Shown piece after piece: positions 4,827 to 48,559 of a stretch of DNA of 64,000 nt. Made by a program: the position numbers and the translations under genes. The stretch lies in the NCBI RefSeq assembly GCF_013377535.1, contig NZ_JABCJE010000002.1, forward strand, positions 620,001 through 684,000, read 5' to 3'. The stretch comes from Donghicola mangrovi (lineage in GTDB: Bacteria; Pseudomonadota; Alphaproteobacteria; Rhodobacterales; Rhodobacteraceae). Within the stretch, counting starts at the first letter, position 1. Each line of letters opens with the position of its first letter. A model generated the notes under the pieces. It did no database searches, was not told where the DNA came from, and saw only the letters and a list, made by a program, of their open reading frames with translations.

Positions 4827-4846
4827 TGATCGGGTGGAGCCGATCA
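4827..4846 (+). promoter_or_regulatory. leader hairpin, loop GTGGAG
   Basis: A 7-bp perfect stem (TGATCGG/CCGATCA) with a six-base loop GTGGAG lies between operator 2 and the TRAP gene start. It belongs to a recurring class of sense-strand hairpins with GGAG in the loop (see findings). Confidence 0.55.
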
Positions 4847-4857
4847 AACGAAAGCAA

Positions 4858-4877
4858 GGCGGCTAGAGGAGGCCGCC
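4858..4877 (+). promoter_or_regulatory. leader hairpin, loop TAGAGGAG, just before the ribosome-binding site
   Basis: A perfect 6-bp GC stem (GGCGGC/GCCGCC) has an 8-base loop containing GAGGAG. It ends two bases before the AGGGAGGA ribosome-binding site of the TRAP binding-protein gene. It may set a ribosome standby site or a pairing target. Confidence 0.55.
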
Positions 4878-4894
4878 CAGGGAGGACAATGACT

Positions 4895-5914
4895 ATGAAA
4901 CTCAGCAAGCTTCTTGCCACTGCTGCTCTGACCGCTATTGCCGCGTCGGCAGCCATGGCTGAACCCATTACCCTGCGTATCCAGACCCACTATGCAACCG
5001 AGCACCCCTCGGGCAAGCTGGCCGCGCAATTCGTTGATGACGTCCAGACCATGTCGGACGGCAGCATCACCATTGAAATGTTCTACTCGTCGTCGGTCGT
5101 TGCCACCACCGAGACCTGGGACGCAGCCGTCAACGGCATTCTGGACTGCGACATGACCGGCGGTGCCTACCAGACCGGCAAGAACCCCGCGTTCCAGTTC
5201 GTGGGCGACATCATGGGCGGCTACGACACCCCCTACCAGCAGCTGTCGTGGCTGTATTACGGCGGCGGCTATGAAGCAGCCCAGTCGCTGTACAACGAAT
5301 ACGGCATGCAGCTCGTTGGCTGGTGGATCTATGGTCAGGAATCGCTGTCCTCGTCCAAGCCGATCGCAGGCCCCGAAGACCTGAAGGGCTGGAAGTTCCG
5401 TTCGCCTCCGGGTCTGGAAACCGAAATCTTCACCGAGATGGGCGCAACCCCGATCGTGATGGACTTCACCGAGATCTTCACCGCGCTGGAAACCGGCATC
5501 ATCGACGGTGCGGACGCATCGGGTCTGGCCAACAACGTTGGTCTGGGTCTGTATGACATCGTCAAGCACGCCAACTACCCCGGCTTCCACTCGATGCCGT
5601 CGGACCACCTGGCCTGTAACAAGGACGTTTGGGACAGCATGACCCCCGGTCAGCAGCGCATCATGGACACCGCGATGCAGAAACTGTCGCTGCACACCGC
5701 CATCTCGAACGAGAAGAAGAACGCAGAAGCCGCAGCAGAGCTGAAGGCCAAAGGCGTGACCCTGTACGACTGGTCGGAAGAAGACCGCGCCAACTTCCGT
5801 GCCGCAGCACAGAAGGCATGGGACGGTTGGGCAGCCAAGACCCCCGAGGCAGCTGCGCTGGTCGAAAGCCACCGCAAGTACCTGGGCGAGCTTGGCCTGA
5901 TTTCCGCTCAGTAA
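4895..5914 (+). CDS. dctP: TRAP transporter substrate-binding protein (DctP family)
   Basis: The 339-residue precursor has a Sec signal peptide (KLSKLLATAALTAIAASAAMA, cut about residue 22) and then a DctP fold. The hinge region carries the carboxylate-binding Arg in GWKFRSP and the conserved TALETGIIDGAD. It should capture an organic or sugar acid in the periplasm for the DctQM permease encoded next. An in-frame ATG lies at 4889, but GGAGG at 4881-4885 is better spaced (9 nt) for 4895. The enzymes encoded downstream suggest an aldonate or uronate ligand, which is an inference. The gene leads the operon behind two TGGTATACCA operators. Confidence 0.92.
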   Translation: MKLSKLLATAALTAIAASAAMAEPITLRIQTHYATEHPSGKLAAQFVDDVQTMSDGSITIEMFYSSSVVATTETWDAAVNGILDCDMTGGAYQTGKNPAFQFVGDIMGGYDTPYQQLSWLYYGGGYEAAQSLYNEYGMQLVGWWIYGQESLSSSKPIAGPEDLKGWKFRSPPGLETEIFTEMGATPIVMDFTEIFTALETGIIDGADASGLANNVGLGLYDIVKHANYPGFHSMPSDHLACNKDVWDSMTPGQQRIMDTAMQKLSLHTAISNEKKNAEAAAELKAKGVTLYDWSEEDRANFRAAAQKAWDGWAAKTPEAAALVESHRKYLGELGLISAQ

Positions 5915-5947
5915 CTCACTTAACGTGACACCATAGCCTGACAGTCG

Positions 5948-5979
5948 GGCGGGCCAGTTCCATATGGCCCGCCTTTTTT
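5948..5979 (+). terminator. attenuating terminator between dctP and dctQ
   Basis: A 9-bp perfect stem (GGCGGGCCA/TGGCCCGCC, 8-nt loop) is followed by seven T residues. It lies inside the operon, 33 nt after the dctP stop. Partial termination here would give more binding protein than permease. Confidence 0.85.
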
Positions 5980-6026
5980 AAACCCATGCTCTGCCAGAGC
6001 GGGATTCAGGCAAGGAGATTTCAACT

Positions 6027-6833
6027 ATGGAGAACCAGAGCGTTTGGCTCGGGCGTCTCAGAGCGCCGGTGCGCATGGGCATGATCGGCTTTACGATCCT
6101 GACCCTGATCATCTTTGCGGTTCTGATCGTCGGCCAGTTTGTTTCTGCCGAACCCATCGGCATGTACGAGATGATCCGCCCCGCAGGGCGTCCTCTTGCA
6201 CAGGCGATGCTGTTCTCGCTGTCGGGGGCCCTTCTGTTTGCCTCGCTGTTCCTGTCGGATACAGTGGGCGCGATCGAAACCCGTCCCAGCGGCTTTTTCG
6301 ATTACATTTCGCTGGTCGCTTCGCGCCTTGCCATGGTCTCGATTACCTTCTGCGTGATCGTGATGTTCTACGAGGTCATCTCGCGCTACGCGTTCAACCG
6401 CCCCACCCTGTGGGCGAACGAGCTGTCGCTGTGGATCGCGTCGTTCATCTTCCTGCTGGCGGGCCTTTATGCGATGCAGCAGCGCAGCCACATCCGCATC
6501 TACGTGATCTATGACATGTTCCCCCGCTGGATGCAGAAGGTCGCGGACGTGATTTCGGTCGCGCTGATCGTGGGCTTCACCTTTGCGCTGGTCTGGGGCG
6601 GCTTTGCCGACGCATGGACCCGTATGATGCGCATGGAAACCTTTGGCACAGCGTGGGATCCGGCCATTCCGGGCACCGTCAAACCCGCCATTCTGATCAT
6701 CATTGTCCTTGTGACCATTCAGGCCGTCTCGAACTTGATCGCCGACTGGAACAAGGCCCCCGAACACCACGGCCACGACGATATCGACGAGCACGAAATC
6801 GAAACCCTGCGTCGTTCGCTGGAGGATAAATAA
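6027..6833 (+). CDS. dctQ: TRAP transporter small permease (DctQ), long form
   Basis: The 268-residue membrane protein carries the DctQ domain in its C-terminal two thirds, including SRYAFNRPTLWANELSLWIA and the following helices. At least two extra hydrophobic segments precede it (about residues 17-40 and 62-80), where typical DctQ proteins (about 160-190 aa) have none. The C-terminal tail is acidic and His-rich (EHHGHDDIDEHE). With DctM it forms the membrane part of the transporter. AGGAG lies 9 nt before the ATG. Confidence 0.88.
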   Translation: MENQSVWLGRLRAPVRMGMIGFTILTLIIFAVLIVGQFVSAEPIGMYEMIRPAGRPLAQAMLFSLSGALLFASLFLSDTVGAIETRPSGFFDYISLVASRLAMVSITFCVIVMFYEVISRYAFNRPTLWANELSLWIASFIFLLAGLYAMQQRSHIRIYVIYDMFPRWMQKVADVISVALIVGFTFALVWGGFADAWTRMMRMETFGTAWDPAIPGTVKPAILIIIVLVTIQAVSNLIADWNKAPEHHGHDDIDEHEIETLRRSLEDK

Positions 6834-6836
6834 GTT

Positions 6837-8432
6837 ATGGTTGATATCGGTACACTCAGCCTGATCCTGCTTCTGGGCATGTTTGCCCTGCTGGCGATCG
6901 GTATGCCGCTGGGGTTCGCGTCCGCCTTCCTTGCGGTCATGACGCTGGTCATGAAGTTCGACGTGGACATCCTCTTCAAAACCTTTGGCAAAGGGCCGTT
7001 CTCGGTTCTTGGTCAGGCGGTCTATCGCCAGATGACGAACTACGTTCTGATCTCGGTGCCGCTGTTCATCTTTATGGCCGCGCTATTGGAACGATCCGGC
7101 ATCGCCAAGGACATGTACTCGGCCCTGAACCAGCTTCTGTCGCGCACCCGTGGCGGTATCGCTCTGGTGACCTCGCTGATGGCGGTGATCATGGCGGCCA
7201 TGTCCGGCATCATCGGCGGAGAAGTCGTTCTCTTGGGTCTGATCGCCCTGCCCCAGATGCTGCGTCTGGGCTATAACCAGAACCTCGCCATCGGCACCAT
7301 CTGTGCGTCCGGCAGCCTTGGCACCATGATCCCGCCGTCGATCGTTCTGATCTTCTACGGTCTGGTCACAGAAACCTCGATCAAGGCGCTCTTCACCGCG
7401 TCCTTCCTGCCCGGTTTCATGCTGGCGTCGTTCTTCATGATCTACATCGTGTTCCGCACCCTGAAGAACCCGGAAATGGCCCCCCTGCCGCCCGAAGATC
7501 CCAACGATCCCAAGGGCAAGGAAAAAGGCCTGATGTTCCTGGGCTTCTTGGCTCGCCTCTCGATCTGGCTGGTCGGCGTGCTGATCCTGCGCAACCTGTT
7601 CTTCACCGTCACCGGCGACAACAAAGTGGTCGAGAACGTAGAGCCCATCTTCCTTGGCATGGTGTCTGACCTGCCCTACCTGATCGGCGCCTTCGTGCTG
7701 TCCTTTGTGGTGGTCTTCTTCATCGTCGGCCGTGAACGTACCGCCGCCGGTTGGGAAATGTCCAAAGGTCTGGTGGCTCCGATCATCGTGATCGGCGTGG
7801 TTCTGGGCTCGATCTATGGCGGTATCACCGGCATCACCGAAGCAGCAGGCATGGGCGTTGTGGCCGTGTTCACCATCAGCCTTCTGCGCGGCGAGATGAC
7901 CTTTGACATCGTCTGGGACAGCCTGATGCGCACCCTGAAATCGACCGGCACCATCATCTGGGTGACCATCGGTGCAGCGGCGCTGGCGGCGGCCTACACT
8001 CTGGCCGGTGGCCCGACCTATGTGGCGAACCTGATCGTGGGCTCTGACCTGCCGACCATGGGCGTGATCTTTGTGATGATGTTCATCTTCCTGATCATGG
8101 GGATGTTCATGGACTGGGTTGGCATCGTTCTTCTGATCATGCCGGTGTTCCTGCCCATCGTTCTGCGCCTGCCCGTCGAGGAACTCGGTTTCGTCGGCAG
8201 CCTGCCCTCGCAGTACGTCGCGGTCTGGTTCGGTGTGGTGTTCTGTATGAACATGCAGGTCAGCTTCCTGTCGCCGCCCTTTGGCCCCGCGGCCTTCTAC
8301 CTGAAGTCTGTGGCACCTGCCCACATCTCGCTGACGGATATCTTCAAGGGCTTCCTTCCCTTTATCGCGATCCAGCTGCTTGCGCTGTCGGTCCTCCTAA
8401 TATGGCCCCCGATCGTGACTCTGTTCCTCTGA
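6837..8432 (+). CDS. dctM: TRAP transporter large permease (DctM), long form
   Basis: The 531-residue polytopic protein starts with the hydrophobic LILLLGMFALLAIGMPLGFASAF. It has the family motifs MSGIIGGEVVLLGLIALPQM and GSLGTMIPPSI and ends in hydrophobic helices. It is about 100 residues longer than the usual DctM (about 430). The extra length sits after residue 200 as a polar linker (PEDPNDPKGKEKG) with additional helices to about residue 310. It forms the ion-coupled translocation pathway with DctQ. It starts 3 nt after dctQ. Confidence 0.92.
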   Translation: MVDIGTLSLILLLGMFALLAIGMPLGFASAFLAVMTLVMKFDVDILFKTFGKGPFSVLGQAVYRQMTNYVLISVPLFIFMAALLERSGIAKDMYSALNQLLSRTRGGIALVTSLMAVIMAAMSGIIGGEVVLLGLIALPQMLRLGYNQNLAIGTICASGSLGTMIPPSIVLIFYGLVTETSIKALFTASFLPGFMLASFFMIYIVFRTLKNPEMAPLPPEDPNDPKGKEKGLMFLGFLARLSIWLVGVLILRNLFFTVTGDNKVVENVEPIFLGMVSDLPYLIGAFVLSFVVVFFIVGRERTAAGWEMSKGLVAPIIVIGVVLGSIYGGITGITEAAGMGVVAVFTISLLRGEMTFDIVWDSLMRTLKSTGTIIWVTIGAAALAAAYTLAGGPTYVANLIVGSDLPTMGVIFVMMFIFLIMGMFMDWVGIVLLIMPVFLPIVLRLPVEELGFVGSLPSQYVAVWFGVVFCMNMQVSFLSPPFGPAAFYLKSVAPAHISLTDIFKGFLPFIAIQLLALSVLLIWPPIVTLFL

Positions 8433-8454
8433 GGTAGGAAACCTTGATGCCCGG

Positions 8455-8480
8455 CCGGGGCGGACATGCTGCCGCCCCGG
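8455..8480 (+). other. GC-rich stem-loop after dctM
   Basis: A perfect 9-bp stem (CCGGGGCGG/CCGCCCCGG, 8-nt loop) lies 22 nt beyond the dctM stop and 178 nt before the next start. No T-run follows, so a stabilising 3' structure or a processing point fits better than an intrinsic terminator. The rest of the 225-bp gap contains a direct repeat CCATACGT at 8583-8590 and 8594-8601. Confidence 0.5.
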
Positions 8481-8657
8481 TCCCTACGTTGGTTAACAAG
8501 CCACACCTGAATTCCCGCCCGTCCCGGCCGATTGGCTGCCACGGGCCCCCAAGGCACCACCGGCCCCGCGTCAGTACGCCAGCCATACGTGCCCCATACG
8601 TTCGCCAGACCCAGATTTTCGCGCCGATTTGGCGCTCCGAGGATCAAGGAATTAACC

Positions 8658-11203: not shown

Positions 11204-11231
11204 CCCTGCTAACCTATTGGAGTTATTGAAG

Positions 11232-11957
11232 ATGAGGCTAAAGGGAAAACGCGCCTTTGTCACCGCAGCCGGTCAGGGGATCGGGCGCGCAATTGCCGAA
11301 CACTATGCCCGCGAGGGGGCGCACGTCATCGCGACCGACCTGAAGGCCGACCTGCTGGAGGGGCTGGATGTGGCGCAAACCATGACGCTGGACGTGACTG
11401 ACAAAGCCGCCATGACGCAGGCCATTCAGGACGCCGCGCCGGACATCCTGGTGAACTGCGCGGGCTACGTCCACGGGGGCACCATCCTCGAGGCCAAGGA
11501 CGAAGAGTTTGACTTTGCCTTTACCCTGAACGTGCGGTCCCAGTTCCATTCGATGCAGGCCGCCCTGCCCGGCATGATCGAACGTGGCGGCGGGTCCATC
11601 GTGAACATCGCGTCGGTCGCCAGCTCGATCGTGGCGGCGCCGAACCGCTGCATCTATGGCGCATCCAAGGCCGCCGTGATTGGCCTGACCAAATCGGTCG
11701 CGCTGGATTTCGTAAAACAAGGCATCCGCGTCAACTGCATCTGCCCCGGAACTGTGGACAGCCCGTCCCTGCACGACCGCCTGCGCGCCATGGGCAACTA
11801 CGACGAGGCCCGCAAAGCCTTTGAGGCGCGTCAACCCATGGGCCGCATCGGTACCGCAGACGAGATCGCCCATCTGGCGGTCTATCTGGGCTCGGACGAG
11901 AGCGCCTTTACCACTGGACAGGCCCACGTCATCGACGGCGGTTGGGCGGTCGGCTAA
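11232..11957 (+). CDS. SDR-family dehydrogenase, 2-keto-3-deoxy-fuconate dehydrogenase/DHRS6-like
   Basis: The 241-residue classical SDR has TAAGQGIG at residues 11-18 for NAD(H) binding, the catalytic Ser in NIASVASS and the YGASK Tyr/Lys pair, and ends with GQAHVIDGGWAVG. It resembles the subgroup of 2-keto-3-deoxy-L-fuconate dehydrogenase and human DHRS6/BDH2. That activity makes 2,4-diketo-3-deoxy acids, which an FAH-type hydrolase (compare 3137-3982) can split. I chose the ATG at 11232; TTGGAG lies 8 nt before it. Confidence 0.85.
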   Translation: MRLKGKRAFVTAAGQGIGRAIAEHYAREGAHVIATDLKADLLEGLDVAQTMTLDVTDKAAMTQAIQDAAPDILVNCAGYVHGGTILEAKDEEFDFAFTLNVRSQFHSMQAALPGMIERGGGSIVNIASVASSIVAAPNRCIYGASKAAVIGLTKSVALDFVKQGIRVNCICPGTVDSPSLHDRLRAMGNYDEARKAFEARQPMGRIGTADEIAHLAVYLGSDESAFTTGQAHVIDGGWAVG

Positions 11958-15565: not shown

Positions 15566-15575
15566 TGGTATACCA
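15566..15575. promoter_or_regulatory. TGGTATACCA operator 3
   Basis: A 10-bp palindrome core lies between the divergent dehydratase gene (start 15492, minus) and the secreted-protein gene (start 15640, plus). Its centre is 25 bp from that of operator 4. Confidence 0.78.
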
Positions 15576-15590: not shown

Positions 15591-15600
15591 TGGTATACCA
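15591..15600. promoter_or_regulatory. TGGTATACCA operator 4
   Basis: This is the second palindrome core in the same divergent region. The pair can serve both flanking operons. Confidence 0.78.
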
Positions 15601-15605: not shown

Positions 15606-15625
15606 GACGGCTGGGGAGAGCCGTC
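15606..15625 (+). promoter_or_regulatory. leader hairpin, loop GGGGAG
   Basis: A perfect 7-bp stem (GACGGCT/AGCCGTC) with the loop GGGGAG lies between operator 4 and the ribosome-binding site GGGGAGG (15627-15633). It has the same order of parts as in the TRAP leader: operator, hairpin, ribosome-binding site. Confidence 0.55.
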
Positions 15626-15639
15626 TGGGGAGGACACTA

Positions 15640-16116
15640 ATGAAACGTGACATTGGCGCGATCGCAGCCCTGTGTCTGGCGCTATGGGCCCTGCCTGCTG
15701 GCGCGGAAATTTCTATCGAAGCCGTGGATGCCTGCATCGCCAAGGCCGCCGAGGACGGGACCAACCCGAACCTCTGCGTGGATCAGGCCCACACCGACTG
15801 CGGCACCATCGCCGAGGATATGCACACCGTGGCCACCCTGTGCTTTACCGAAGCGCAGGGCGTCTGGGGCAATGCGATTGCCACCAAACTGGCCGAGGTT
15901 CAGGCCAAAACCGACGAGAATATCGGCGCCGTCGCCGCGATCGAGACCAAGTATGACGTGCTGTCGGCCTTGGTCCAATGCGACCGGATGGAGGAACTGT
16001 CCCGCCTGACCCAGAGCACCGCCGATCTGGTCCAGCGCCAAAAGGCAGGCTGCCAGTCCACTGCATCCGGTCTGGCCTATGTCCGTCTGGTCTGGCGGGC
16101 GCGGTCGCTGAAATGA
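15640..16116 (+). CDS. secreted protein of unknown function
   Basis: The 158-residue protein has a clear signal peptide (MKRDIGAIAALCLALWALPAGA, cut about residue 22). The mature part is small, alpha-helical and cysteine-bearing (Cys in DACIAK, LCVDQAHTDC, TLCFTE, VQCDRM and AGCQST). The Cys spacing and the AQGVWGNAI stretch recall LprI/DUF1311-type periplasmic proteins, but I do not regard that as established. It leads an operon with azlC (ATGA overlap), azlD and an RraA-like gene. It sits directly behind the TGGTATACCA pair, so it should be induced with sugar-acid catabolism. Confidence 0.7.
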   Translation: MKRDIGAIAALCLALWALPAGAEISIEAVDACIAKAAEDGTNPNLCVDQAHTDCGTIAEDMHTVATLCFTEAQGVWGNAIATKLAEVQAKTDENIGAVAAIETKYDVLSALVQCDRMEELSRLTQSTADLVQRQKAGCQSTASGLAYVRLVWRARSLK

Positions 16117-27602: not shown

Positions 27603-28772
27603 TTAGAGCAATTTCCTGATGCGACTGATCGCTTCAAGAATATTCTCGGTCGAGTTCGCGTAGGAGAAGCGCAGATACCCTTCGCCCCACGCGCCAAAGG
27701 ACGTCCCGGCAACGGTCGCAACCCCCGCCTCGTCCAGAAATTTATCCTGCGCCTGTTTCGAGGTCAGGCCGGTCCCCTCGATATTCGGGAAGGCATAGAA
27801 GGCCCCCGCGGCATCGGCGCAGCGTACACCGGGCAGGTCGTTCAGGGCGTCCACGATCACTTGGCGGCGGGCGTCGAACTGGGCCACCATGGCGGTCACG
27901 CAGTCCTGCGGTCCGGCCAAAGCGGCGAGCCCCGCGAACTGGGTCGGCGCGTTCACGCAGGAGTGGTCGTTGATGCAGAGGCGCGTCACGTGGTCCACCG
28001 CCGCATCAGGCCAAACCGCGTAGCCAAGGCGCCAGCCGGTCATGGCATAGGTCTTGGACCAGCCATCCAGCATGATCAGGCGGTCGCGGATTTCGGGGTA
28101 TTGCAGCAGGCTGACGTGTTCCCGCCCGCCATAGAGCATGTTGCTGTAAATCTCGTCCGACATCAGGGCCACGTGGGGGTGATCCATCAGGCCCGCCACC
28201 AGCTTGTCGATTTCCTCTTTCGGCGTGACACCGCCCGTGGGGTTCGCAGGGCTGTTGATGATGATCAGGCGGGTGCGTTCGGTGATCTGGGACAGAACCT
28301 GTTCGGCGCTGAAGGCAAAACCGTTCTTTTCCTCCAAGGCAATCGGCACGGGCGTCGCGCCGCTGTACTTGATTACGGATTCATAGATCGGAAAGCCCGG
28401 ATTGGGGTACATGATCTCGGCGCCCGGTTGGCCGAACATCATCACCGCAAAGAACATCGTCGGCTTGCCACCCGGCACGACGACCACGTTGTCAGGATTC
28501 ACTTCAACCCCGTGACGGCGGTTCAGGTCGGCGGCAACAGCCTCGCGCAGCACCGGCAGACCGTTCGCGGGCGTGTAGCCGTGGTGGCCATCGCGGATCG
28601 CCTTGATCGCGGCTTCGGAGATATGCTCGGGCGTTTTGAAGTCCGGCTGCCCGATCCCGAGGTTGATGATATCTTTGCCCTGCTGCGCCAGAGCCTGCGC
28701 CCGCGCCAGCACCACAAAGGCGGACTCGGTTCCCAGACGCGACAGACTGTCGGCGAAAATCATGCCTGACAT
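27603..28772 (-). CDS. class I/II PLP-dependent aminotransferase (AspC-like)
   Basis: The 389-residue aminotransferase has LGIGQPDFKTPEHI near residue 38, NSPANPTGG, SDEIYSNM and the PLP Lys in DGWSKTYAMTGWRLGY. The general fold is that of aspartate/aromatic aminotransferases; the amino donor and acceptor cannot be set from sequence. GGGGAGGGACC lies directly before the ATG at 28772; an in-frame ATG at 28763 is less well placed. Operator 6 and a GGAG-loop hairpin lie upstream, so it heads the operon. Confidence 0.85.
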   Translation of the reverse strand: MSGMIFADSLSRLGTESAFVVLARAQALAQQGKDIINLGIGQPDFKTPEHISEAAIKAIRDGHHGYTPANGLPVLREAVAADLNRRHGVEVNPDNVVVVPGGKPTMFFAVMMFGQPGAEIMYPNPGFPIYESVIKYSGATPVPIALEEKNGFAFSAEQVLSQITERTRLIIINSPANPTGGVTPKEEIDKLVAGLMDHPHVALMSDEIYSNMLYGGREHVSLLQYPEIRDRLIMLDGWSKTYAMTGWRLGYAVWPDAAVDHVTRLCINDHSCVNAPTQFAGLAALAGPQDCVTAMVAQFDARRQVIVDALNDLPGVRCADAAGAFYAFPNIEGTGLTSKQAQDKFLDEAGVATVAGTSFGAWGEGYLRFSYANSTENILEAISRIRKLL

Positions 28773-28801
28773 GGTCCCTCCCCATAGGCTGATTAAAGTG
28801 C

Positions 28802-28828
28802 CGGAGCGGGCCCCTCCTTCCCGCTCCG
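28802..28828 (-). promoter_or_regulatory. leader hairpin, loop AAGGAGGGG
   Basis: On the sense (minus) strand a perfect 9-bp stem (CGGAGCGGG/CCCGCTCCG) carries the loop AAGGAGGGG. It sits between operator 6 and the aminotransferase start, 29 nt before the ATG. The order operator, hairpin, ribosome-binding site is the same as in the leaders at 4805 and 15591. Confidence 0.6.
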
Positions 28829-28842
28829 ACTGGGTTTGGAAA

Positions 28843-28856
28843 TTTGGTATACCAAA
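28843..28856. promoter_or_regulatory. TGGTATACCA operator 6 (14-bp perfect palindrome)
   Basis: TTTGGTATACCAAA lies upstream of the aminotransferase operon and 38 bp past the end of otnI. It has the same 14 bases as operator 1. Confidence 0.82.
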
Positions 28857-37854: not shown

Positions 37855-38640
37855 TTAGTTCAGGTCCCAGGCGCGGACCCAGATGACCGCATCCTGTGAC
37901 AGAGGTTTGCCCTCGAATTCTTTGTCCGGCCCGATGTCCAACGCGGCAAAGCCCCAATAGCCCGCCTTCGGCACACCGAAGTCGAAATACCCCTCGTCGT
38001 CCGAGATCACCACAATCGCCCCGCCGGGCAAGGGTTTGGCCGTGGGGGCCAGCGCACCTTCGCCCGCCAGATCGGGCTCTGCTGCCATGAATTCGACCTC
38101 GATCTCGGCTCCTGCGACAGGTTCGCCCGCCGCCATCACCCGTCCGCGAAAGGTCGAGCCCGCGATGATGTTATAGGGTTTGGTCAAGGGCAGGATCTCG
38201 GTGCGCAGGTTTTGCGGCTGATCCCAGTCGGTCGGCAGGCCGCTGCGGTTCAGGTAGGCCTTCGTGATCTGCTGGATGAACTTGTCCTCGGACTCCTCGT
38301 AATAGGGCTGAGGGACGGTCACCAGCACATAGTCGCCCGACCGTTTGACCGGCACAGAGCCCATGTAAGCACCCGCGCTATTCTCGCTGCTGCGGAACAC
38401 GGTAGGGGTCAGAGAGGGTTTCAGATCGGTCTTTTCCCCGCGGTGCACCACGTAGAATTCCAAGGGCTCGGCCAGTTCCATCACGGTGCCGTCGCTCATC
38501 GGGTGCCAGAAGGCCAGTTTGACCGGCACATCGCCGGGACGTTCGATAATGGTGTCTTTGGTGTAACTTAGCAGGAAATGCGCCCCTGCCACCTTGGGCA
38601 GAAGCAAAGCTGCGGCGGTGGCCAGCAGTAGGTGTTTCAA
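37855..38640 (-). CDS. NikK-like periplasmic component of the metal transporter (DUF4198 type)
   Basis: The 261-residue protein has a signal peptide (KHLLLATAAALLLPKVAGA) followed by AHFLLSYTKD. Beta-rich repeats follow, with EVEFMAAEPDLAG and VISDDEGYFDFGVPKAGYWGF, as in DUF4198/NikK proteins. No ATG fits: I chose TTG at 38640, 8 nt after GAGG; GTG at 38646 is the alternative. It is the first gene after the cobalamin riboswitch and likely feeds metal to CbiM in the periplasm. Confidence 0.82.
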   Translation of the reverse strand: MKHLLLATAAALLLPKVAGAHFLLSYTKDTIIERPGDVPVKLAFWHPMSDGTVMELAEPLEFYVVHRGEKTDLKPSLTPTVFRSSENSAGAYMGSVPVKRSGDYVLVTVPQPYYEESEDKFIQQITKAYLNRSGLPTDWDQPQNLRTEILPLTKPYNIIAGSTFRGRVMAAGEPVAGAEIEVEFMAAEPDLAGEGALAPTAKPLPGGAIVVISDDEGYFDFGVPKAGYWGFAALDIGPDKEFEGKPLSQDAVIWVRAWDLN

Positions 38641-39063
38641 GGTCACGTCCTCATACAGACAGGCGGGAAATCCCGCATTCGGAATGAGACGAAAGGGAAC
38701 AATCGGCACGGGTGGATTTATGGCCCAACCACGCCAGACGCGCACCCCGGCGTCCGGTTGCAAAGCGCATCTCTGCGCCTGTGTCCGGCAGGTCTCCTGA
38801 CTCGCGGGTCGTTGCGCTGGCTGGCCTTCCCGAACCTGTGGTCCAGTGGCTGTCTCAGCTGCGCTCGCCGCTCACAGTTGCGGGGGCAGTCACGGATTTG
38901 GTCCCTGATGGGTACGCCGCACCGTGTTCCCTTTTGCTTCCGTCTGGCACCTTGGGGCCGTCGCGGAACCGATCACATTTCGGGTTTGCCCCATCCGCCA
39001 GCCCCCGTCAATCGCTGTTCGCGCAAGGGGGACTAGCAAAAGGTATGGTCGTGCGACTTCGCC
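38641..39063. other. 423-bp stretch without a protein gene: riboswitch and leader
   Basis: Besides the cobalamin riboswitch (38781-38955, minus strand), the segment holds about 140 nt of leader between the riboswitch and the TTG start of the K component. About 108 nt lie between the riboswitch and the acyl-CoA dehydrogenase stop, where the promoter of the metal operon should be. No other convincing feature was seen. Confidence 0.6.
38781..38955 (-). promoter_or_regulatory. cobalamin (B12) riboswitch
   Basis: On the minus strand the conserved parts appear in order: GGTGCC (38951-38946), AAATCC then the core ACTGCCCCCGCAACTGT (38890-38874), AGCCA, and the B12 box GTCAGGAGACCTGCC (38801-38787). 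This is the standard cobalamin aptamer. It lies in the leader of the metal-transporter operon, so uptake is expected to be shut when adenosylcobalamin or a related corrinoid is plentiful. That supports cobalt rather than nickel as the cargo. Confidence 0.93.
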
Positions 39064-40626: not shown

Positions 40627-42276
40627 TTACTGACAGGTAAAGCTGGAGGCCGACTTGGGGTCGGTTCCGGTATAGTGGGCGGTTTGCGGCGCGGGGCACA
40701 GGACAGTCTCTTCGCCCTTCAGGGTCTCGGGGACTTCTTCGTTGCCGTCGCGGGCGCGTGCGGGGATGGCTTCGGGGGCGGTGCCGTTTTCAACCCAGTC
40801 CACCAGCGCGGTGAACAGATCGAAATCCTCAGCGCCCGGGCCGCCAGAGCAGTGGCTCATGGCCGGAACGGGGTAGAAACGGGCGAAGTCTGCCGCCTTG
40901 CCACCGTTGTTCGCGTCCAGTTTGCCGTACCAGTTCGCGGTGTCATTGACCGAGAAGACCGCATCGCTGACCCCGTGGAACACCAGCATCTTGCCACCCG
41001 CATCGCGGAACTGCGCCAGTTCGGGGTTGTCCGAACCCGGAGGGGTCATGACCTCCATCGCGCTTTCGGGGAACTCGGCGGTGGTGGCATAGATGTCCCC
41101 TGCCCGCGCCTTCAGGTCAAAGCCCATCAGGAACTGTTCCAGCGCCTCGGGCGAGCCTTCGACATCGGTGGGGGGCGTGGTGAACACCTGCGCCAGCGAG
41201 CCAGAGCCCATCACGCCGATGATCGGACGGTTGCCCCACGGCGGGATCGGGCTTTCCAGTTTCCAGAAGCGCCAGTTGCCGCCCTCGATCCCCGTATCCC
41301 ACGGCCAATCAGAGTAGAGCTGTTCGCCATTCGCGCCCTTGGGGCCGGCGTGAATGTTTTGCAGAACGGTGACTTGGGCCTCGGTCAGACACGCGCTGTT
41401 CTGGCCTTCGGCGCATTGCAGGGTGGTCACGTCGAACGCGTCCTGACAGGCGGCGGAGTTCTGAACCAGACCGTCCTCCAGACCGTCCAGTGCGTCACAC
41501 GCCGCGCGGACGCCGTTGCCAACCAGCTTCAGGTCATCGGGCGTAAACGCAGTTTTCAGCGCGCCATTGATCGACATGAAGTTCTGCACATCATGGGCGT
41601 GTTGCAGCGCGGCCTTGGGCAGGTTGAACCCCGGCGCACCGATCAGCAACCCGTCAAACGCCTCGGGCATCCGAGAGGCCGCGACCATCGCGTGACGCCC
41701 ACCGTTCGAGCACCCCACGCCATAAGCGTGGTCGATATCCGCGCCATAGAAGGCCTGCACCGCCTGACGCGCCACCGGGTCCAGTGTTGCCACGGCCTTG
41801 TAGCCGTACATCTGGCGCGCCTCGAAATCGAAGCCGAAGTTTGCGCCGCCAGCCAGTCCCTTATCGGGGTTCGCTTTGCCATCATGGCCCGCGTCCGAGG
41901 ACACCACCGCATAGCCGCGCGCCAAGGGCGTGTCGCTGCCAGTGCCGGACTTCAGACCACCGGTTGCGGCTTTGACTTCACCATCGTTGCCGCCATTGAA
42001 CTGGTGCACGTAGTCACCGTTCCAGTCCTCGGGCAGGTTCAGCTCGAACGACAGCGCATAGGGCTTGCCGTCCATGCCCGTGCGCTCCGCCATCACGCCG
42101 CGCACGCGGCAAGCGTTCACGGGGCTTTCCTCGCCCGCGGGGACAGCGGCCACCTCGGTCAGGCGCACGCCGCTCAGGCCCAAGGCCTCGGCGGTTAGGC
42201 CATCGCAGGCCATCGGGGCGGCAATTGCCCCGGTCGAGACCAGCGAAGTGGTCAGACCCAGAAGTACTTTCTTCAT
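40627..42276 (-). CDS. tannase/feruloyl esterase-family secreted hydrolase
   Basis: The 549-residue precursor has a signal peptide (MKKVLLGLTTSLVSTGAIAA) and the alpha/beta-hydrolase fold of the tannase family. The nucleophile Ser lies in GVGCSNGGRHAM, flanked by VVSSDAGHDG, and the acid/His are near GKMLVFHGVSDAVF and PAMSHCSGGPGA. Such enzymes release ferulate, p-coumarate or gallate from esters. In the periplasm it would provide free hydroxycinnamates to the TRAP system. GGAGGAAACGCG precedes the ATG. Confidence 0.85.
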   Translation of the reverse strand: MKKVLLGLTTSLVSTGAIAAPMACDGLTAEALGLSGVRLTEVAAVPAGEESPVNACRVRGVMAERTGMDGKPYALSFELNLPEDWNGDYVHQFNGGNDGEVKAATGGLKSGTGSDTPLARGYAVVSSDAGHDGKANPDKGLAGGANFGFDFEARQMYGYKAVATLDPVARQAVQAFYGADIDHAYGVGCSNGGRHAMVAASRMPEAFDGLLIGAPGFNLPKAALQHAHDVQNFMSINGALKTAFTPDDLKLVGNGVRAACDALDGLEDGLVQNSAACQDAFDVTTLQCAEGQNSACLTEAQVTVLQNIHAGPKGANGEQLYSDWPWDTGIEGGNWRFWKLESPIPPWGNRPIIGVMGSGSLAQVFTTPPTDVEGSPEALEQFLMGFDLKARAGDIYATTAEFPESAMEVMTPPGSDNPELAQFRDAGGKMLVFHGVSDAVFSVNDTANWYGKLDANNGGKAADFARFYPVPAMSHCSGGPGAEDFDLFTALVDWVENGTAPEAIPARARDGNEEVPETLKGEETVLCPAPQTAHYTGTDPKSASSFTCQ

Positions 42277-42304
42277 ATCGCGTTTCCTCCAATAAACTCC
42301 TGTT

Positions 42305-42332
42305 CGCAGCAGGGCTCCTCTTCCCCGCTGCG
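42305..42332 (-). promoter_or_regulatory. leader hairpin before the esterase gene, loop AAGAGGAG
   Basis: On the sense strand a 10-bp stem (one G-U) carries the loop AAGAGGAG, 28 nt before the esterase ATG. A 12-bp palindrome CCCCTATAGGGG (42346-42357) precedes it directly after the amidohydrolase stop. Confidence 0.55.
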
Positions 42333-42364
42333 GTCAGGCACACATCCCCTATAGGGGAGTTTCG

Positions 42365-43237: not shown

Positions 43238-43246
43238 TGTGTCACC

Positions 43247-45061
43247 TCACACCCGGATCAGCGCCGGGTCTTCGTTATCGTAGAGCCGCTCGAGCAGGTC
43301 GGCGCGGCGGGTAATGATCTTGCGGACGTTCAGGCTGCCCTTGTCCGTAATCTCGTGGTCTTTGACCGAGGGCGGTTCGGACAGGATAATGGCACGGCTG
43401 ATCCGCTTTGCCGAGCCAGTGGCATTGTGGGCCATGTCGCGCAGGCGCTCTTCGAGTTCCGCCTGTAGGATCGGGTCGATGACCGCCCCTTCGGAGGTGT
43501 TGTCGCCATGAACATGGTCGGGACGCGGGAAGATGAACAGGCCGATCTGGTCGCGGTCATGACCGCAGATCACAACGTCCTGCACCAGACCGCGCAGACC
43601 TTCCAACGCCTCAAGACGCAGTTTGCCCGCCTGAACCCAAGTGCCGGTCAGCAGTTTGAAATCCTCGGACACGCGGCCATCAAAGGTCAGGCCCCGCTCG
43701 GCATCATCGTTGTTCACGAAACGCACGGCGTCGCCGGTGATCAGGAAGCCTTCTTCGTCAAAGGCTTCGGCGGACTTCTTCTCGTCGCCCCAGTAGCCGG
43801 TCATCACATTCGGGCCTTTGACGCGCAGCTCGCAGCGCATCTCGTCGTCGGGCATCAGTTTGACGACCGTTTCAGGCAGAGGCACACCGATCACGCCAGA
43901 GCGACCGATGGGTTCGTGAACCATGATCGTCGCGGGGGCGGTTTCGGTCATGCCCCAGCTGGAAATCATCAGCGGCAGGCGGCCACGGACTTCCATCGCC
44001 ATCTCTTCGAGACGGGTCCAGACGTCTTGGGGCAGCGAGGCACCGGCATAGAAGATCAGGTCCAGATCGCGGAAATACGCTTGGCGCAGCTCCAGATTGG
44101 TTTCCATCTCGTGGACCAGCATCGCGAACCCGACGGGCACGTTGAAAGACAGCGTGCCGGGCTTGTCGATGATGTTCTGGACGGTGTGCTTGAAGCCCGA
44201 CTTGGTGGGCTTGCCGTTGTCCACATACAGGCTGCCGCCGTTCGCCAGCATCATATACGCGTTGTGCGAGCCGCCGAACACGTGGTTCCAAGGCAGCCAG
44301 TCGGTGATGCTGGGGGCCTTTTCCTTGAGGAAGGGCATGACCGAGGCCATCTGCGCCTGGTTCGCACACATCATGCGCTGGGTGGTCAGCACGCCCTTGG
44401 GGTCCGAAGACGAGCCAGAGGTGAACAAGATTTTCGCCAGCGTATCGGGGCCAACGGCTGCATGCACCGCGTCCAGATCAACGCTGTCATCACCCGCCAG
44501 AAGATCGGCAAAGGGGGTCACGGCGACAGGTGCGCCTTCGGTGGCAGAGGCCACGATTTCCACGTCCGCCAGTTCGGGACGCTTCAGCGCCTCAGCGTAG
44601 CGGCCCGCGTCATCGACGAAGGCCATCGCAGGTTTGACCTTGTTCAGGACATAGACCAGACGAGCGTGCGCCTCGGGGATGAGCGAATACTGCTCGGCCA
44701 GCGGCACGGTCGGAACGCCGGCCCACTGCGCCCCCAAGGACAGCAGCGCGTGGTCCACACCGTTGCCCGACATGATCACGATGGGGGTCTCTTGGCCCAG
44801 ACCGCGCGCGGCCAGCGAAGAGGCAATCGCTTTGACCTGATCCAGCAGCGCGGCGTAAGTGATTTCGCGCCAGCCGTCCCCTGCCCGCTCGGCGATGTAG
44901 ACCTGATCGGGGGTCTCGGCGGCCCACTTTTCGATCCAGACGCCGGTGTGATCGACGATGGGATCGCAGGCCACGTTAGAGCGCATTTCGATAATGCTGT
45001 CGCGACGCTCGAGCCGGACAGAGTGCGGGACCATGGTCAGTCCCGTAATCTCGTTTTTCAT
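43247..45061 (-). CDS. fcs: feruloyl-CoA synthetase (hydroxycinnamate-CoA ligase)
   Basis: The 604-residue adenylate-forming ligase has the ATP loop LFTSGSSSDPKGVL, then SSWGMTETAPA, FLITGDAVRF and the Fcs-specific FKLLTGTWVQAGKLRLEAL. The C-terminal catalytic Lys region (DKGSLNVRKI) is present. It activates ferulate, p-coumarate or caffeate to the CoA thioester in the cytoplasm. GGAGGGGGAATT precedes the ATG. The gene lies between the MarR regulator and amidohydrolase genes in one operon. Confidence 0.88.
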   Translation of the reverse strand: MKNEITGLTMVPHSVRLERRDSIIEMRSNVACDPIVDHTGVWIEKWAAETPDQVYIAERAGDGWREITYAALLDQVKAIASSLAARGLGQETPIVIMSGNGVDHALLSLGAQWAGVPTVPLAEQYSLIPEAHARLVYVLNKVKPAMAFVDDAGRYAEALKRPELADVEIVASATEGAPVAVTPFADLLAGDDSVDLDAVHAAVGPDTLAKILFTSGSSSDPKGVLTTQRMMCANQAQMASVMPFLKEKAPSITDWLPWNHVFGGSHNAYMMLANGGSLYVDNGKPTKSGFKHTVQNIIDKPGTLSFNVPVGFAMLVHEMETNLELRQAYFRDLDLIFYAGASLPQDVWTRLEEMAMEVRGRLPLMISSWGMTETAPATIMVHEPIGRSGVIGVPLPETVVKLMPDDEMRCELRVKGPNVMTGYWGDEKKSAEAFDEEGFLITGDAVRFVNNDDAERGLTFDGRVSEDFKLLTGTWVQAGKLRLEALEGLRGLVQDVVICGHDRDQIGLFIFPRPDHVHGDNTSEGAVIDPILQAELEERLRDMAHNATGSAKRISRAIILSEPPSVKDHEITDKGSLNVRKIITRRADLLERLYDNEDPALIRV

Positions 45062-45087
45062 AATTCCCCCTCCGGGCCCTCCCGCCC

Positions 45088-45567
45088 TTAGTCGGATGAT
45101 CCAGCGGTGCCAATGCGCCGCAACATATCGTAAAGAGCGGTCTGCTCTTCTTCGCTCAGGGCGGACAGCAGCGCGCGTTCATGCGCCTGGACTGCTGCCT
45201 CGGCCTTTTTCCATAATTTCTGCCCTGCCAATGTCGCCCGCAGGGCATAAGAGCGGCGGTCCCCTTCGACGCGGTTGCGCCCGATGAGATCCGCATTTTC
45301 CAGCTCGTCCACGATCACCACCGTCCCCGAGCGTTCGATGCGCAGCGCCTGCGCCAGCTGGGTCTGGGTGATGTCGGGATTTTCGTTGATGACGGCGAGC
45401 GCCGAGAACGTCGCAACCCGCAGGCCAAGGGGTTCGATGGTACGGATCATGTCCTCGCGGATCAGCAGATAGTTCTGCTTCATGCTGTACCCGATGAACT
45501 GCCGCAGACTACGGTCCGAAGGGATCGCCTCTGCCACTGCCTGTTTGCGCGCAACTCTCGCCATCAT
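45088..45567 (-). CDS. MarR-family transcriptional regulator
   Basis: The 159-residue MarR protein has the winged-helix region TQTQLAQALRIERSGTVVIVDELENADLIGRNRVEGDRRSYAL (about residues 65-110) flanked by dimer helices. MarR repressors of hydroxycinnamate genes (CouR/FerC type) respond to the CoA thioester. Its position directly before fcs suggests the same control. Two adjacent ATGs (45567, 45564) follow AGGAG; the first is used here. Confidence 0.87.
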   Translation of the reverse strand: MMARVARKQAVAEAIPSDRSLRQFIGYSMKQNYLLIREDMIRTIEPLGLRVATFSALAVINENPDITQTQLAQALRIERSGTVVIVDELENADLIGRNRVEGDRRSYALRATLAGQKLWKKAEAAVQAHERALLSALSEEEQTALYDMLRRIGTAGSSD

Positions 45568-45580
45568 CGTTCTCCTTGTC

Positions 45581-46903
45581 TTAACCGGCCACCACACCGA
45601 CCAGCCAGTAGCTGAGCACGGGGAAGCTGACCAGTAGAGCGATCCGGCAGAACTCGGCGCAGATAAAGGGCGTCGTTCCACGGAAGATCTGACTGGTGGG
45701 GATGTCCTTGGCCATCGCAGAGATGACGAACAGGTTCATACCCACGGGCGGTGTGATCAGGCCCATCTCGACGACCACCAGCGTGATGATCCCGAACCAC
45801 ATGGCCTGCTGTTCCGGCATCAGTCCGAAATCCAGCGCCATCACGGTCGGAAAGAACACCGGCACGGTCAAGAGGATCATCGACAAGCTGTCCATGACGC
45901 AGCCCATGATCAGATAGAACACAATCATCCCCAGCATCACAGTCATCGGCGCGATATCCGCATTGCGGAAGAAATCGGCCACTTCGGCAGGCATCTGGCT
46001 TAGGGCGAGTGCCACGTTGAAGATGTCCGCGCCGAACACGATCGCAAAGATCATCGCGGTCGAGCCTGCGGTGTCGATCAGACAGTCCATCAACTCGCTG
46101 AACTTGAGCCCCGCTTTGAACAGACCCACCGCCAGCGTCATCACCACACCCACCGAGGCGCCCTCGGCCGGAGTGAAGAAGCCGCCATAGATGCCCCCCA
46201 GAACCACCACGAAGATCGCAATCACGTGCCAGATGTCCTTGAGAGACCGCAGGCGGGTTGCCAAATCGGCTTTCTCGTGGGTCGGGCCTTCTTCGGGATA
46301 CAGGCGCACATACACCATGATCGCGATAAAGAACCCGCAGACCGCCAGAATGCCCGGAATGGTCGCCGCTAGGAACAGTTTGACGATGTTCTGCTCGGTC
46401 AGAAGCGCGTAGATGATCAGAACCACCGACGGCGGGATCAGAATACCCAAGGTGCCCCCAGCCGCCAGCGACCCCGAGGACAGCGCCCCCGAATAGCCGT
46501 GCTTGCGCATTTCCGGCAGAGCGACCTTGGCCATGGTCGAGGCTGTCGCCAGCGACGAGCCAGAGATCGAGCCGAACATCGCACAGCCCGCCACAGCCGC
46601 CATCGCCAGACCGCCGCGCTTGTGACCGATCCAGGCGTTTGACGCTTGGAAGATCGCGCCCGAAATCCCGGTGCGGGTGGCCAGATGGCCCATCAGGATG
46701 AACAGCGGCACGATGGCCAGTTCATAGGACATGAACTTGTCCACCCAAGCGGTGTTGAAATACGCCATCAAGGCATAGGGACTGGCCAGAAACGAATAGC
46801 CCACCGCCCCCACAACGCCCATCGCCAGCGCAATCGGCATCCGGATAAAGATCGCCAACAGCAGGACGACGACCATGATCGTTGCAATAAGTGTCGGGTC
46901 CAT
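45581..46903 (-). CDS. dctM: TRAP transporter large permease (DctM)
   Basis: The 440-residue polytopic protein has the normal DctM length and motifs: FGSISGSSLATASTMAKVALPEM, LAAGGTLGILIPPSVVLIIY, GFFTPAEGASVGV and the final EMGLITPPVGMNLF. With the two genes before it, it forms a complete TRAP system. Genomic context suggests a hydroxycinnamate or related aromatic acid as substrate. Its ATG shares a base with the dctQ stop. Confidence 0.92.
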   Translation of the reverse strand: MDPTLIATIMVVVLLLAIFIRMPIALAMGVVGAVGYSFLASPYALMAYFNTAWVDKFMSYELAIVPLFILMGHLATRTGISGAIFQASNAWIGHKRGGLAMAAVAGCAMFGSISGSSLATASTMAKVALPEMRKHGYSGALSSGSLAAGGTLGILIPPSVVLIIYALLTEQNIVKLFLAATIPGILAVCGFFIAIMVYVRLYPEEGPTHEKADLATRLRSLKDIWHVIAIFVVVLGGIYGGFFTPAEGASVGVVMTLAVGLFKAGLKFSELMDCLIDTAGSTAMIFAIVFGADIFNVALALSQMPAEVADFFRNADIAPMTVMLGMIVFYLIMGCVMDSLSMILLTVPVFFPTVMALDFGLMPEQQAMWFGIITLVVVEMGLITPPVGMNLFVISAMAKDIPTSQIFRGTTPFICAEFCRIALLVSFPVLSYWLVGVVAG

Positions 46904-47448
46904 TACGCGCTCTCCATTCCGCGCAGCGAGGTGAAGATCATCGGCAGGCTCATGGCCAGCGCGACAACCGCGGACAGCGCAGTACCAAAGACCGCAGGCA
47001 CATAGGCCCACCAGATCGGTGCACGCAGCAGCATGGATTTGTCACCATAGCCGCGGATTTCCTCTAGGCCGATCGACAGACGCCAGCACAAGAGCGCCCA
47101 CACCACGGCAAAGATCAGCGTCCAGATCCCGTCCAGACGGCGCTGCGCCCGAAAGGGCATCCAAGCCGTGAACAGGTCCACCATCACATGGCCTTTGTTC
47201 AATTGGCAGAGCGGCAGGAAAAGCGACGCACAGGCGGCGCAGACCAGTTCCACCAGTTCGAAGTCTCCGCGGACACCGCCAAGACCAAGGTTCCGAAGAA
47301 CAACCGAGACCGTCACAAGGATCGCCGCGCCAAAGATCACCAGCCCGCCGAAACCGGCAGAGACAACGCAGATCGGTCGCAGGATCTTGAACAGGGGGCC
47401 GTTCACCCCCTGCCAGTCATTGTGTTCGCTTTCCAGCCGCTCGGCCAT
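46903..47448 (-). CDS. dctQ: TRAP transporter small permease (DctQ)
   Basis: The 181-residue protein has four hydrophobic helices and the DctQ stretch ELVELVCAACASLFLPLCQLNKGHVMVDL. This is the usual short form, unlike the long DctQ at 6027. It starts 1 nt after the dctP stop and is translationally coupled to dctM. Confidence 0.88.
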   Translation of the reverse strand: MAERLESEHNDWQGVNGPLFKILRPICVVSAGFGGLVIFGAAILVTVSVVLRNLGLGGVRGDFELVELVCAACASLFLPLCQLNKGHVMVDLFTAWMPFRAQRRLDGIWTLIFAVVWALLCWRLSIGLEEIRGYGDKSMLLRAPIWWAYVPAVFGTALSAVVALAMSLPMIFTSLRGMESA

Positions 47449-47449
47449 A

Positions 47450-48487
47450 TCAGGCGTCCAGCAGCTCGTTGGCGCGGGCCAGAATGGCGGCGCCGTCCAG
47501 ACCACGATCGTTCAGCTTTTGCACCCAAGCGTCGTGGATCGGCATTGCCAGTTCCTGCCATTCGGCGATGGTCTCGGCGGGGATTTCCGCGATGGTGTTG
47601 CCCTGCTTTTCAACGACCGATTTGCCAAAGGCCTCGAATTCGTCGAACTGCTTGCCGATGCGCTGGGACAGAGCCATGCCCGAGTGATCGTCGATCACTT
47701 TTTTCACGTCATCCGACATGCCGTCATAGGCGCGCTGGTTCATGATCAGAGCAAAGGTGTTGCAGTAGAGGCCACGTGCGCCCGCCGCCGGAGCCGAGGT
47801 AAAGCTGGTCAGTTCCTGCAGTTTGAACGCAGGCACAACCTCGTAGGGCAGACAGCAGCCGTCGATCACGCCGTTCGACAGACCAACAACCATCTCGGTG
47901 ACGGGGAAGAAGACAACCTCGGCCCCCAGTTTGGTCAGCATCTCGCCGGTGGCCTGGTTGGGCGCGCGCAGCTTCAGACCTTTCAGGTCAGCGGTGCTGG
48001 TGACGGGGGCGTTGCGGGTGTGCAGTTTGCCGCCATCGTGGGTGTGGAAGGCCAGCGTTTTCATGCCGCTGTATTCACCTTCGCCGAACTCGTCCATCAG
48101 GGTCTGCATCGCAACCGAGGTCTTCTCGGCGTTGGTCACCATGAAGGGCAGCGCCATGGTTTCCGCTACGGGGAAACGATCGGGGGTGTAAACAGGCAGG
48201 GTCCATGCGATGTCGCAGATGCCCTGACGGGTCTGGTCTGCCAGCTGCGGCGGCTTGCCACCCAGCTGCATCGAGGGGAACATCTGCACGTCGATCGCGC
48301 CGTTCGACGCTTCTTTCAGCTCTGCCGCCCAAGGTTCAAAGAATTTGGTCTGCATGGGCGCGACGCCGGGCAGGAAGTGGTGCAGACGCAGGGTAACTTC
48401 GGCTGCGTTCGCGCGTTTCATCAGTGCGGGGGTCGCCAGTGCGGCACCCATGGCTGCCATCATGCTGCGGCGGGTAAAGGTCGTCAT
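47450..48487 (-). CDS. dctP: TRAP transporter substrate-binding protein (DctP)
   Basis: The 345-residue precursor has a twin-arginine-like signal (TFTRRSMMAAMGAALATPALM), so it may be exported folded by Tat. The DctP fold follows, with LKGLKLRAPNQATGEMLTKLG (binding Arg) and GLSNGVIDGCCLPYE. Two adjacent Cys (GVIDGCC) near the ligand site are unusual. It starts at 48487 with GGGAGG upstream. It is predicted to bind an aromatic acid from the cluster context. Confidence 0.9.
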   Translation of the reverse strand: MTTFTRRSMMAAMGAALATPALMKRANAAEVTLRLHHFLPGVAPMQTKFFEPWAAELKEASNGAIDVQMFPSMQLGGKPPQLADQTRQGICDIAWTLPVYTPDRFPVAETMALPFMVTNAEKTSVAMQTLMDEFGEGEYSGMKTLAFHTHDGGKLHTRNAPVTSTADLKGLKLRAPNQATGEMLTKLGAEVVFFPVTEMVVGLSNGVIDGCCLPYEVVPAFKLQELTSFTSAPAAGARGLYCNTFALIMNQRAYDGMSDDVKKVIDDHSGMALSQRIGKQFDEFEAFGKSVVEKQGNTIAEIPAETIAEWQELAMPIHDAWVQKLNDRGLDGAAILARANELLDA

Positions 48488-48532
48488 TCTCAGGGCCTCC
48501 CTATCGTCCTGTGGGTCGAATGAAATCTGTGT

Positions 48533-48559
48533 GTCCGCCCCCTCCTCTTTGGGGCGGAC
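48533..48559 (-). promoter_or_regulatory. leader hairpin before dctP, loop AAAGAGGAG
   Basis: On the sense strand a perfect 9-bp GC stem (GTCCGCCCC/GGGGCGGAC) has the loop AAAGAGGAG. It lies between the crotonase stop and dctP start. No U-run follows, so it is not a normal terminator; it may act in processing, stability or translation. Confidence 0.6.

Follow-up and report, generated by a model that had tools for sequence, protein, structure and literature searches.

The 64,000-nucleotide stretch of the Donghicola mangrovi genome analysed here (the window; contig NZ_JABCJE010000002.1, positions 620,001 to 684,000) contains six hairpins in gene leaders, all on the sense strand and at the places where a first-pass annotation of this DNA had put them, with GGAG or GAGG in their loops. 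Two of them, H1 (4827–4846, plus strand, tgatcgg/GTGGAG/ccgatca) and H2 (4858–4877, plus strand, ggcggc/TAGAGGAG/gccgcc, loop (TA)GAGGAG), lie in the leader of a gene at 4889–5914 (plus strand) for DctP, a substrate-binding protein of tripartite ATP-independent periplasmic (TRAP) transporters (PF03480, E 1.9e-50), ahead of which stands the Shine-Dalgarno sequence (SD) GGGAGGA (4880–4886, plus strand). The same SD (15628–15634, plus strand) precedes a gene for a putative exported protein of 158 amino acids (15640–16116, plus strand; Pfam and NCBIfam gave no match at our thresholds), in whose leader the third hairpin is found (15606–15625, plus strand, gacggct/GGGGAG/agccgtc). The other three are on the minus strand. 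The hairpin at 28800–28830 (gtcggagcggg/AAGGAGGGG/cccgctccggc) belongs to the leader of a class I/II aminotransferase gene (27603–28772; PF00155, E 8.4e-68) with the SD GGGGAGGG (28776–28783), and the remaining two leaders are same-strand intergenic gaps before 42276 and 48487. One gap holds the hairpin at 42305–42332 (cgcagcgggg/AAGAGGAG/ccctgctgcg) and the SD GGAGGA, not of the GGGAGG type (42285–42290), of a tannase/feruloyl esterase gene (40627–42276; PF07519, E 1.9e-112); the other holds the hairpin at 48533–48559 (gtccgcccc/AAAGAGGAG/ggggcggac) and the SD GGGAGG (48496–48501) of a second DctP gene (47450–48487; PF03480, E 2.5e-44).

Three leaders, those of genes 4889, 15640, and 28772, have the order operator, hairpin or hairpins, SD, and start, as described earlier. 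The operator is the palindrome TGGTATACCA, at 4808–4817 (plus strand; second copy at 4752–4761), 15591–15600 (plus strand; another copy at 15566–15575), and 28845–28854 (minus strand). The copy at 4808–4817 is probably a site of the divergent regulator encoded at 3999–4667, whose product matches Pfam GntR and FCD. Partition-function folding gave stem pairing of 0.94–1.00 in the six hairpins and loop openness of 0.90–1.00 in four of them, the two lower openness values (0.61 and 0.82) arising because the scripted loop definition included closing bases; in this model the six stems are near certain and the loops open. The sequence behind each stem has no U-run, so the hairpins are not intrinsic terminators, again in line with the first-pass annotation. 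They had no Rfam match in the window at the gathering threshold, and a probe with the suhB family gave a single sub-threshold match only. Elsewhere in the window, a Cobalamin riboswitch (38770–38988, minus strand; 108.9 bits against a cut-off of 31.5) lies just upstream of a minus-strand open reading frame at 37855–38763.

We compared the frequency of such hairpins with chance by scanning leaders of up to 100 nt, taken from a simple gene model of our own, for stems of at least 6 bp with loops of 5–14 nt, using dinucleotide shuffles as controls. GGAG/GAGG loops occurred in 5/26 window leaders, against a shuffled mean of 0.53 with 0/200 shuffles as high, and loops with the mirror motif CTCC/CCTC in 0/26; the earlier annotation had named equality with shuffled intergenic sequence as the result that would tell against it. 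Over 400 kb of the same contig, sense loops were found in 7/237 leaders (shuffled 4.5) and antisense loops likewise in 7/237 (shuffled 3.2). With leaders of up to 200 nt, the window counts were 5/30 sense and 2/30 antisense, and those elsewhere 8/254 and 11/254. A scan of the whole window (stem at least 6, loop 5–10) returned 19 GGAG/GAGG hairpins, the six and 13 others. Of these 13, 11 are within genes or open reading frames and the other two stop shortly ahead of a start codon; the signal in the window is confined to leaders. Two hairpins on the minus strand hold a gene's own SD in the loop directly before the ATG, at 3983–4001 (tgattt/GGAGGAG/aaatca) and 46904–46925 (tgcgcg/GAATGGAGAG/cgcgta), an arrangement that may possibly control how an FAA hydrolase and a DctM permease, respectively, are translated. 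We rejected a general genome feature, given the near-background count over 400 kb, and the loop hairpins therefore belong to a class of genes.

That class becomes visible among the 22 DctP genes of the genome, 21 of which had usable leaders (one, L102, was dropped as no gene was called there). GGAG/GAGG loops are present in 8/21 of these leaders (shuffled 0.60), antisense CTCC/CCTC loops in 0/21, and a stricter test, which accepts a loop only if it contains five or more bases of GGGAGGAGG, finds 9/21. The hairpins end 11–45 nt upstream of the start, with one exception at 131. The SD GGGAGGA precedes 15/21 of the DctP genes compared with 16/324 genes of the 400-kb stretch, and among leaders of any gene the loop accompanies a GGGAGG SD in 7/25 cases and its absence in 4/238 (Fisher 8e-6), or, outside the window, in 3/17 and 3/220 (p 0.005). 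Other genes with a GGGAGG SD encode ATP-binding cassette (ABC) binding proteins, including a ChvE-type one whose leader has a hairpin; the large subunit of a molybdopterin dehydrogenase of the carbon-monoxide/aldehyde kind (NCBIfam scores below cut-off), also with a hairpin; a pyrroloquinoline quinone (PQQ) methanol/ethanol-type dehydrogenase; SoxX; SoxA; and pyruvate dehydrogenase E1 alpha. Leaders of ABC SBP_bac_5 genes had loops in 0/6. We take the hairpins to be cis-acting leader elements of genes for TRAP transporters and for related carbon uptake or catabolism. The earlier description of them as lying upstream of genes was too general: they are a mark of TRAP genes and others of carbon metabolism and not of genes in general.

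In related leaders the loop theme is often kept on differing stems. H2 with GAGGAG is kept in all four genomes of the genus seen (L052–L055). H1 shows a compensatory A-T to G-C change (ggtcgg/ccgacc) in congener L054 (= L409), has the loop GTGGAA in L053, and is without such a loop in L055. The leader hairpin of gene 48487 is kept in three congeners (L023–L025), one of which, L025, combines a wholly different stem (ttgtgcgcca/tggcgcacga) with the loop CGGAGGA. From named records we took 80 loci orthologous to gene 4889, dropped one (L351) that did not include enough leader, and added the window to the remaining 79. The operator is present in 61/80 of these leaders, with two hairpins, H1 and H2, behind it; 60 of the 61 are distinct, and 54 entered a shuffle test of hairpin scores. 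A GGAG/GAGG loop is found in 35/61 operator leaders (H1 only in 21, H2 only in 10, both in 4) and a CTCC/CCTC loop in 1/61, and a plain scan of the distinct leaders gave 32/60 with the motif, 1.87 after shuffling (maximum 5 in 100 rounds), and 1/60 with its mirror. Loops lacking the theme vary, for example GCAA, GAAA, and CAAA.

Column covariation from MAFFT and RNAalifold was unusable for these leaders, in which loop lengths differ and columns misalign, and we relied on hairpin scores against shuffles and on arm swapping. Best-hairpin scores were 13.06 for H1 and 13.71 for H2, compared with 8.21 and 5.36 for shuffled leaders; 22/54 orthologues for H1 and 40/54 for H2 exceeded their own shuffles at p 0.05, and 34 and 25 different 5-bp arms were represented. 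Own arms paired at 5.00 of 5 by construction, having been picked as hairpins, so that this comparison is biased; swapped arms paired at 2.18 and 2.56. An arrangement in which exactly one of H1 and H2 must hold the motif was unsupported when GGAG, GAGG, AGGA, or GGGA in the loop was counted (neither 26, H1 19, H2 10, both 6; Fisher 0.78). In these predicted hairpins, stems change without losing their pairing, and more than half of the leaders retain the loop theme. Selection on the loop, argued earlier from six examples, is thereby supported within the genome, the genus, and the orthologous leaders, and homologous leaders do keep stem and loop, though not the loop in every case. A binding protein is one candidate for what such a loop attracts. 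CsrA sites take the form of GGA in a hairpin loop, a form that these loops match; CsrA itself was rejected, as PF02599 had no match in the genome and matched 3/14 control genomes, and a site for a CsrA-type or other RNA-binding protein seems to us very unlikely.

Alphaproteobacteria widely carry multi-copy small RNAs (sRNAs) with loops of anti-SD type, and candidates for partners of the leader loops occur in this genome. Right behind a DUF1127 gene, in a CcsR-type layout, lie nine copies of CTCCTCCC spaced 40–53 nt apart, and all nine copies of CTCCTCCTCCC there are predicted to be unpaired. Paired CTCCTCCC motifs occur also on contigs C16, C17, and C62. The copies on C16 and C62 look like standalone RNAs of ~85 nt (with ends that we chose) made up of two hairpins, the second a terminator with a U-run, and both loops of each read CUCCUCCUCCC. 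The loci are C63:89362–89734 for the array, C16:6324, C17:202, and C62:106022 (L136–L139), those on C16 and C17 being identical in the matched stretch. The Rfam family ar14 (RF02344) scored above its cut-off in the array (L136:579–710, minus strand; 62.7 bits compared with 58.8), whereas the solo copies remained below it at 44.5–50 bits, and CcsR1 (RF02791) reached at best 44.9 bits in the genome compared with a cut-off of 65.3. As judged from sequence, the genome encodes ar14/CcsR-type ('cuckoo') sRNAs with CCUCCUCCC loops. Behind another DUF1127 gene, at C1:196633 (L140/L077), there is a hairpin with the loop CTCCTCCTCCTT and a weak ar14 match of 33.1 bits. Across the family, paired CTCCTCCC patterns were found in 49/61 genomes, some single matches probably being chance, and the motif lay in a hairpin loop at 17/20 fetched pair loci (L141–L160). 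Two further genomes carry long ar14/CcsR-like arrays with 9 (G030, C47:83411–83902) and 14 (G009, C38:282136–282743) chained motif matches, which look as if expanded by tandem duplication.

The leader loops occur where the paired motif copies are. We sorted genomes by paired CTCCTCCC counts, in which single pairs may be chance, and applied the strict loop test to sampled DctP leaders. The sample with pairs comprised the D. mangrovi genome (21/22 leaders), G002 (17/17), G005 (19/23), G008 (17/27), G009 (4/14), G016 (4/20), G028 (11/12), and G030 (18/18); that in which pairs were not found comprised G004 (12/21), G007 (16/19), G011 (12/21), G017 (19/24), G018 (11/12), G020 (10/10), and G023 (11/12). 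Strict loops were present in 32/111 leaders of the eight genomes with pairs (shuffled 3.5; antisense 0/111) and in 1/91 leaders of the seven without (shuffled 2.8), a difference with a Fisher p of 1e-8 and a per-genome Mann-Whitney p of 0.004, or 0.012 without the D. mangrovi genus. The contrast was stable to parameters (20/111 versus 2/91 when the stem was set to 6 and the loop to at most 10), and other loop motifs differed less, GNRA-like loops at these settings being found in 8/111 and 5/91. Among the eight genomes, the share of leaders with loops ran from 0/4, 1/18, and 1/17 up to 5/11. A relaxed CTCCTC..CTCCTC pattern, whose reversed control is the same pattern and so carries no information, was scattered among the matches listed for the seven genomes without strict pairs; one of these, G007, with 180 matches, may hold divergent copies.

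Plain stabilising hairpins at 5' ends or between cistrons, their loop content incidental, would suit the many TRAP leaders with other loops and the strong hairpins in 39/91 leaders of the genomes without motif pairs, and the intercistronic hairpin of pufBA is a known stabiliser (PMC10253847). Incidental loop content fits poorly with 32/60 orthologous leaders against 1.87 shuffled and 1/60 mirrored, or with strict antisense loops in 0/111 leaders, and this explanation is very unlikely in our judgement.

Two other functions proposed in the first-pass annotation also bear on these counts. Under the first, a ribosome standby site or second SD, the open GGAG loop would bind the 16S anti-SD and hold the 30S subunit close to the true SD, so that abundant periplasmic proteins would be translated more. 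The DctP loops do pair with the anti-SD (mean −10.0 kcal/mol predicted with the 16S tail), all but one of their hairpins end 11–45 nt upstream of the start, and the true SDs are partly folded in predictions. The anti-SD is presumably universal, however, and the loops are almost absent in the seven genomes without pairs, three of which have the same kind of DctP SD; other leaders of the D. mangrovi genome show no enrichment (7/237); and pairing favours the sRNA loop over the anti-SD in 31/35 of all loops. Standby or extra-SD function, which we regard as rather unlikely, does not explain the genome pattern. The function best supported is that of a target for sRNAs with CCUCC loops, because such RNAs are present in the genome and the loops occur where paired motif copies are. 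A decoy, in which the leader loop would soak up ar14/CcsR RNAs and so shield the SD or other mRNAs, shares the same complementarity and co-occurrence, and nothing favours it above a target; we consider it quite unlikely.

We lean, on balance, towards the hairpins being probably an extra landing site for ar14/CcsR sRNAs beside the SD, which would control nutrient uptake. The purine loops (GAGGAG, GGGAG, GGAGG, and similar) are open in folding and complementary to the CCUCCUCCC loops of sRNAs from the same genome. Predicted pairing with the sRNA loop averaged −12.2 kcal/mol for the DctP loops of the D. mangrovi genome, compared with the −10.0 for the anti-SD, and −9.3 kcal/mol for the six window loops. 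The DctP SDs themselves paired at −13.8 kcal/mol with the sRNA motif and −10.0 with the anti-SD, the former being better in 20/21. For SDs and loops alike, predicted pairing is thus stronger to the sRNA motif than to the anti-SD, and on this ground we interpret the hairpin loop as a second site. An sRNA would offer two such loops and a leader two or three sites, namely a GGGAGGA-like SD plus the loop of one hairpin or of both. One sRNA loop might take the open leader loop as its entry site through a loop-loop contact, and a further one might mask the SD and stop translation, with the result that nutrient uptake would fall under the stress conditions in which the sRNAs are induced. We infer physical pairing, two-site binding, and the direction of regulation from sequence features.

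Several observations weigh against this landing-site interpretation. By its design, the energy comparison is tilted towards the longer pyrimidine loop, and generic SDs lean likewise (−8.7 kcal/mol with the sRNA motif and −7.9 with the anti-SD; sRNA motif better in 128/226). The GTGGAG loop of H1 offers only four to five pairs, and the tannase gene has a hairpin but no GGGAGG SD. A GGAG/GAGG loop is lacking in 26/61 orthologous leaders and, by the strict test, in 12/21 DctP leaders of the genome, and an 82%-identical orthologue of gene 48487 in another genus (L026) has no such hairpin. Motif-rich genomes can have few loops, as in G030 (1/18) and G008 (1/17), and strong hairpins with any loop are commoner in motif genomes (76/111 versus 39/91). 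Relatedness is a real concern, handled by genome-level tests only on a partial sampling, and the orthologous leaders that gave rise to the idea are themselves part of the counts. The main counter-evidence is that GGGAGG SDs are equally common in DctP leaders of three genomes without pairs (29/40) and three with (29/40); the SD form therefore does not depend on the sRNAs, whereas genomes without motif pairs lack the loops almost completely. In G008, several DctP leaders (e.g., L229, L230, and L233) show by eye GC-rich inverted repeats around UCAU-like loops instead of GGAG, perhaps another loop code in that genus.

A more specific proposal, which we advance tentatively and with some doubt, is that the hairpin is a co-evolved target-side element. 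Its loop would mirror the sRNA loop and form a kissing entry site next to the SD, giving a multi-hairpin sRNA a two-point grip. Such an element could define a roseobacter carbon-uptake regulon of TRAP and ABC binding proteins and of one-carbon and pyruvate enzymes, be gained and lost with the sRNA genes, and have its loop alternate between the two hairpins of the leader while stems change. The sRNA family itself is a known one, and the target-side leader variant appears to be new; in the parts of the literature covered by our search, the leader element and TRAP GGAG-loop targets were not found, and an earlier mention in the main CcsR/cuckoo papers is possible. These leaders touch the question of how a CCUCCUCCC loop picks its targets among the many SDs of a cell. 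If the proposal is right, a second loop site together with a closely matching SD would constitute a specificity code readable from sequence, and TRAP transport, a main carbon-uptake route in marine roseobacters, would be under stress-sRNA control.

Among known systems, ribosome standby sites resemble the leader hairpins in providing a second contact upstream of the SD, a second ribosome contact in their case, and differ in that the known ones are single-stranded stretches and that a tie to sRNA genes is not expected of them. TakP is a TRAP binding protein, and regulation of TRAP uptake by an sRNA has a parallel of a different kind. The SorY sRNA of Rhodobacter sphaeroides is said to limit malate import via a metabolite transporter, takP (PMC5036791); SorY is another sRNA than ar14/CcsR. 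The ar14 RNA NfeR1 of Sinorhizobium meliloti silences ntrB at the translation start via CCUCCUCCC motifs in hairpin loops, its predicted targets are mostly ABC-transporter mRNAs, and two ABC binding-protein mRNAs have been confirmed as silenced (PMC10746234). The likeness to ar14/NfeR1 (RF02344), which has a member in the D. mangrovi genome, is that of a trans-acting RNA with CCUCCUCCC in its loops; the site described for it is the translation initiation region, and a second site in a leader hairpin loop was not found in the portion of that report consulted (PMC10746234). In R. sphaeroides, CcsR1–4 are co-transcribed with the DUF1127 gene ccaF1, and the CIN1 layout of this and other Alphaproteobacteria has CcsR-like RNAs behind DUF1127 (PMC10253847). 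CcsR acts on flhR mRNA and affects one-carbon metabolism, glutathione, and the pyruvate dehydrogenase complex (PMC8307010, PMC5036791). The D. mangrovi sRNAs differ from CcsR/cuckoo RNAs (RF02791) in that their CcsR1 matches are below the Rfam cut-off; they share the layout behind a DUF1127 gene, and the genes with GGGAGG SDs here include pyruvate dehydrogenase E1 alpha and the PQQ methanol/ethanol-type dehydrogenase.

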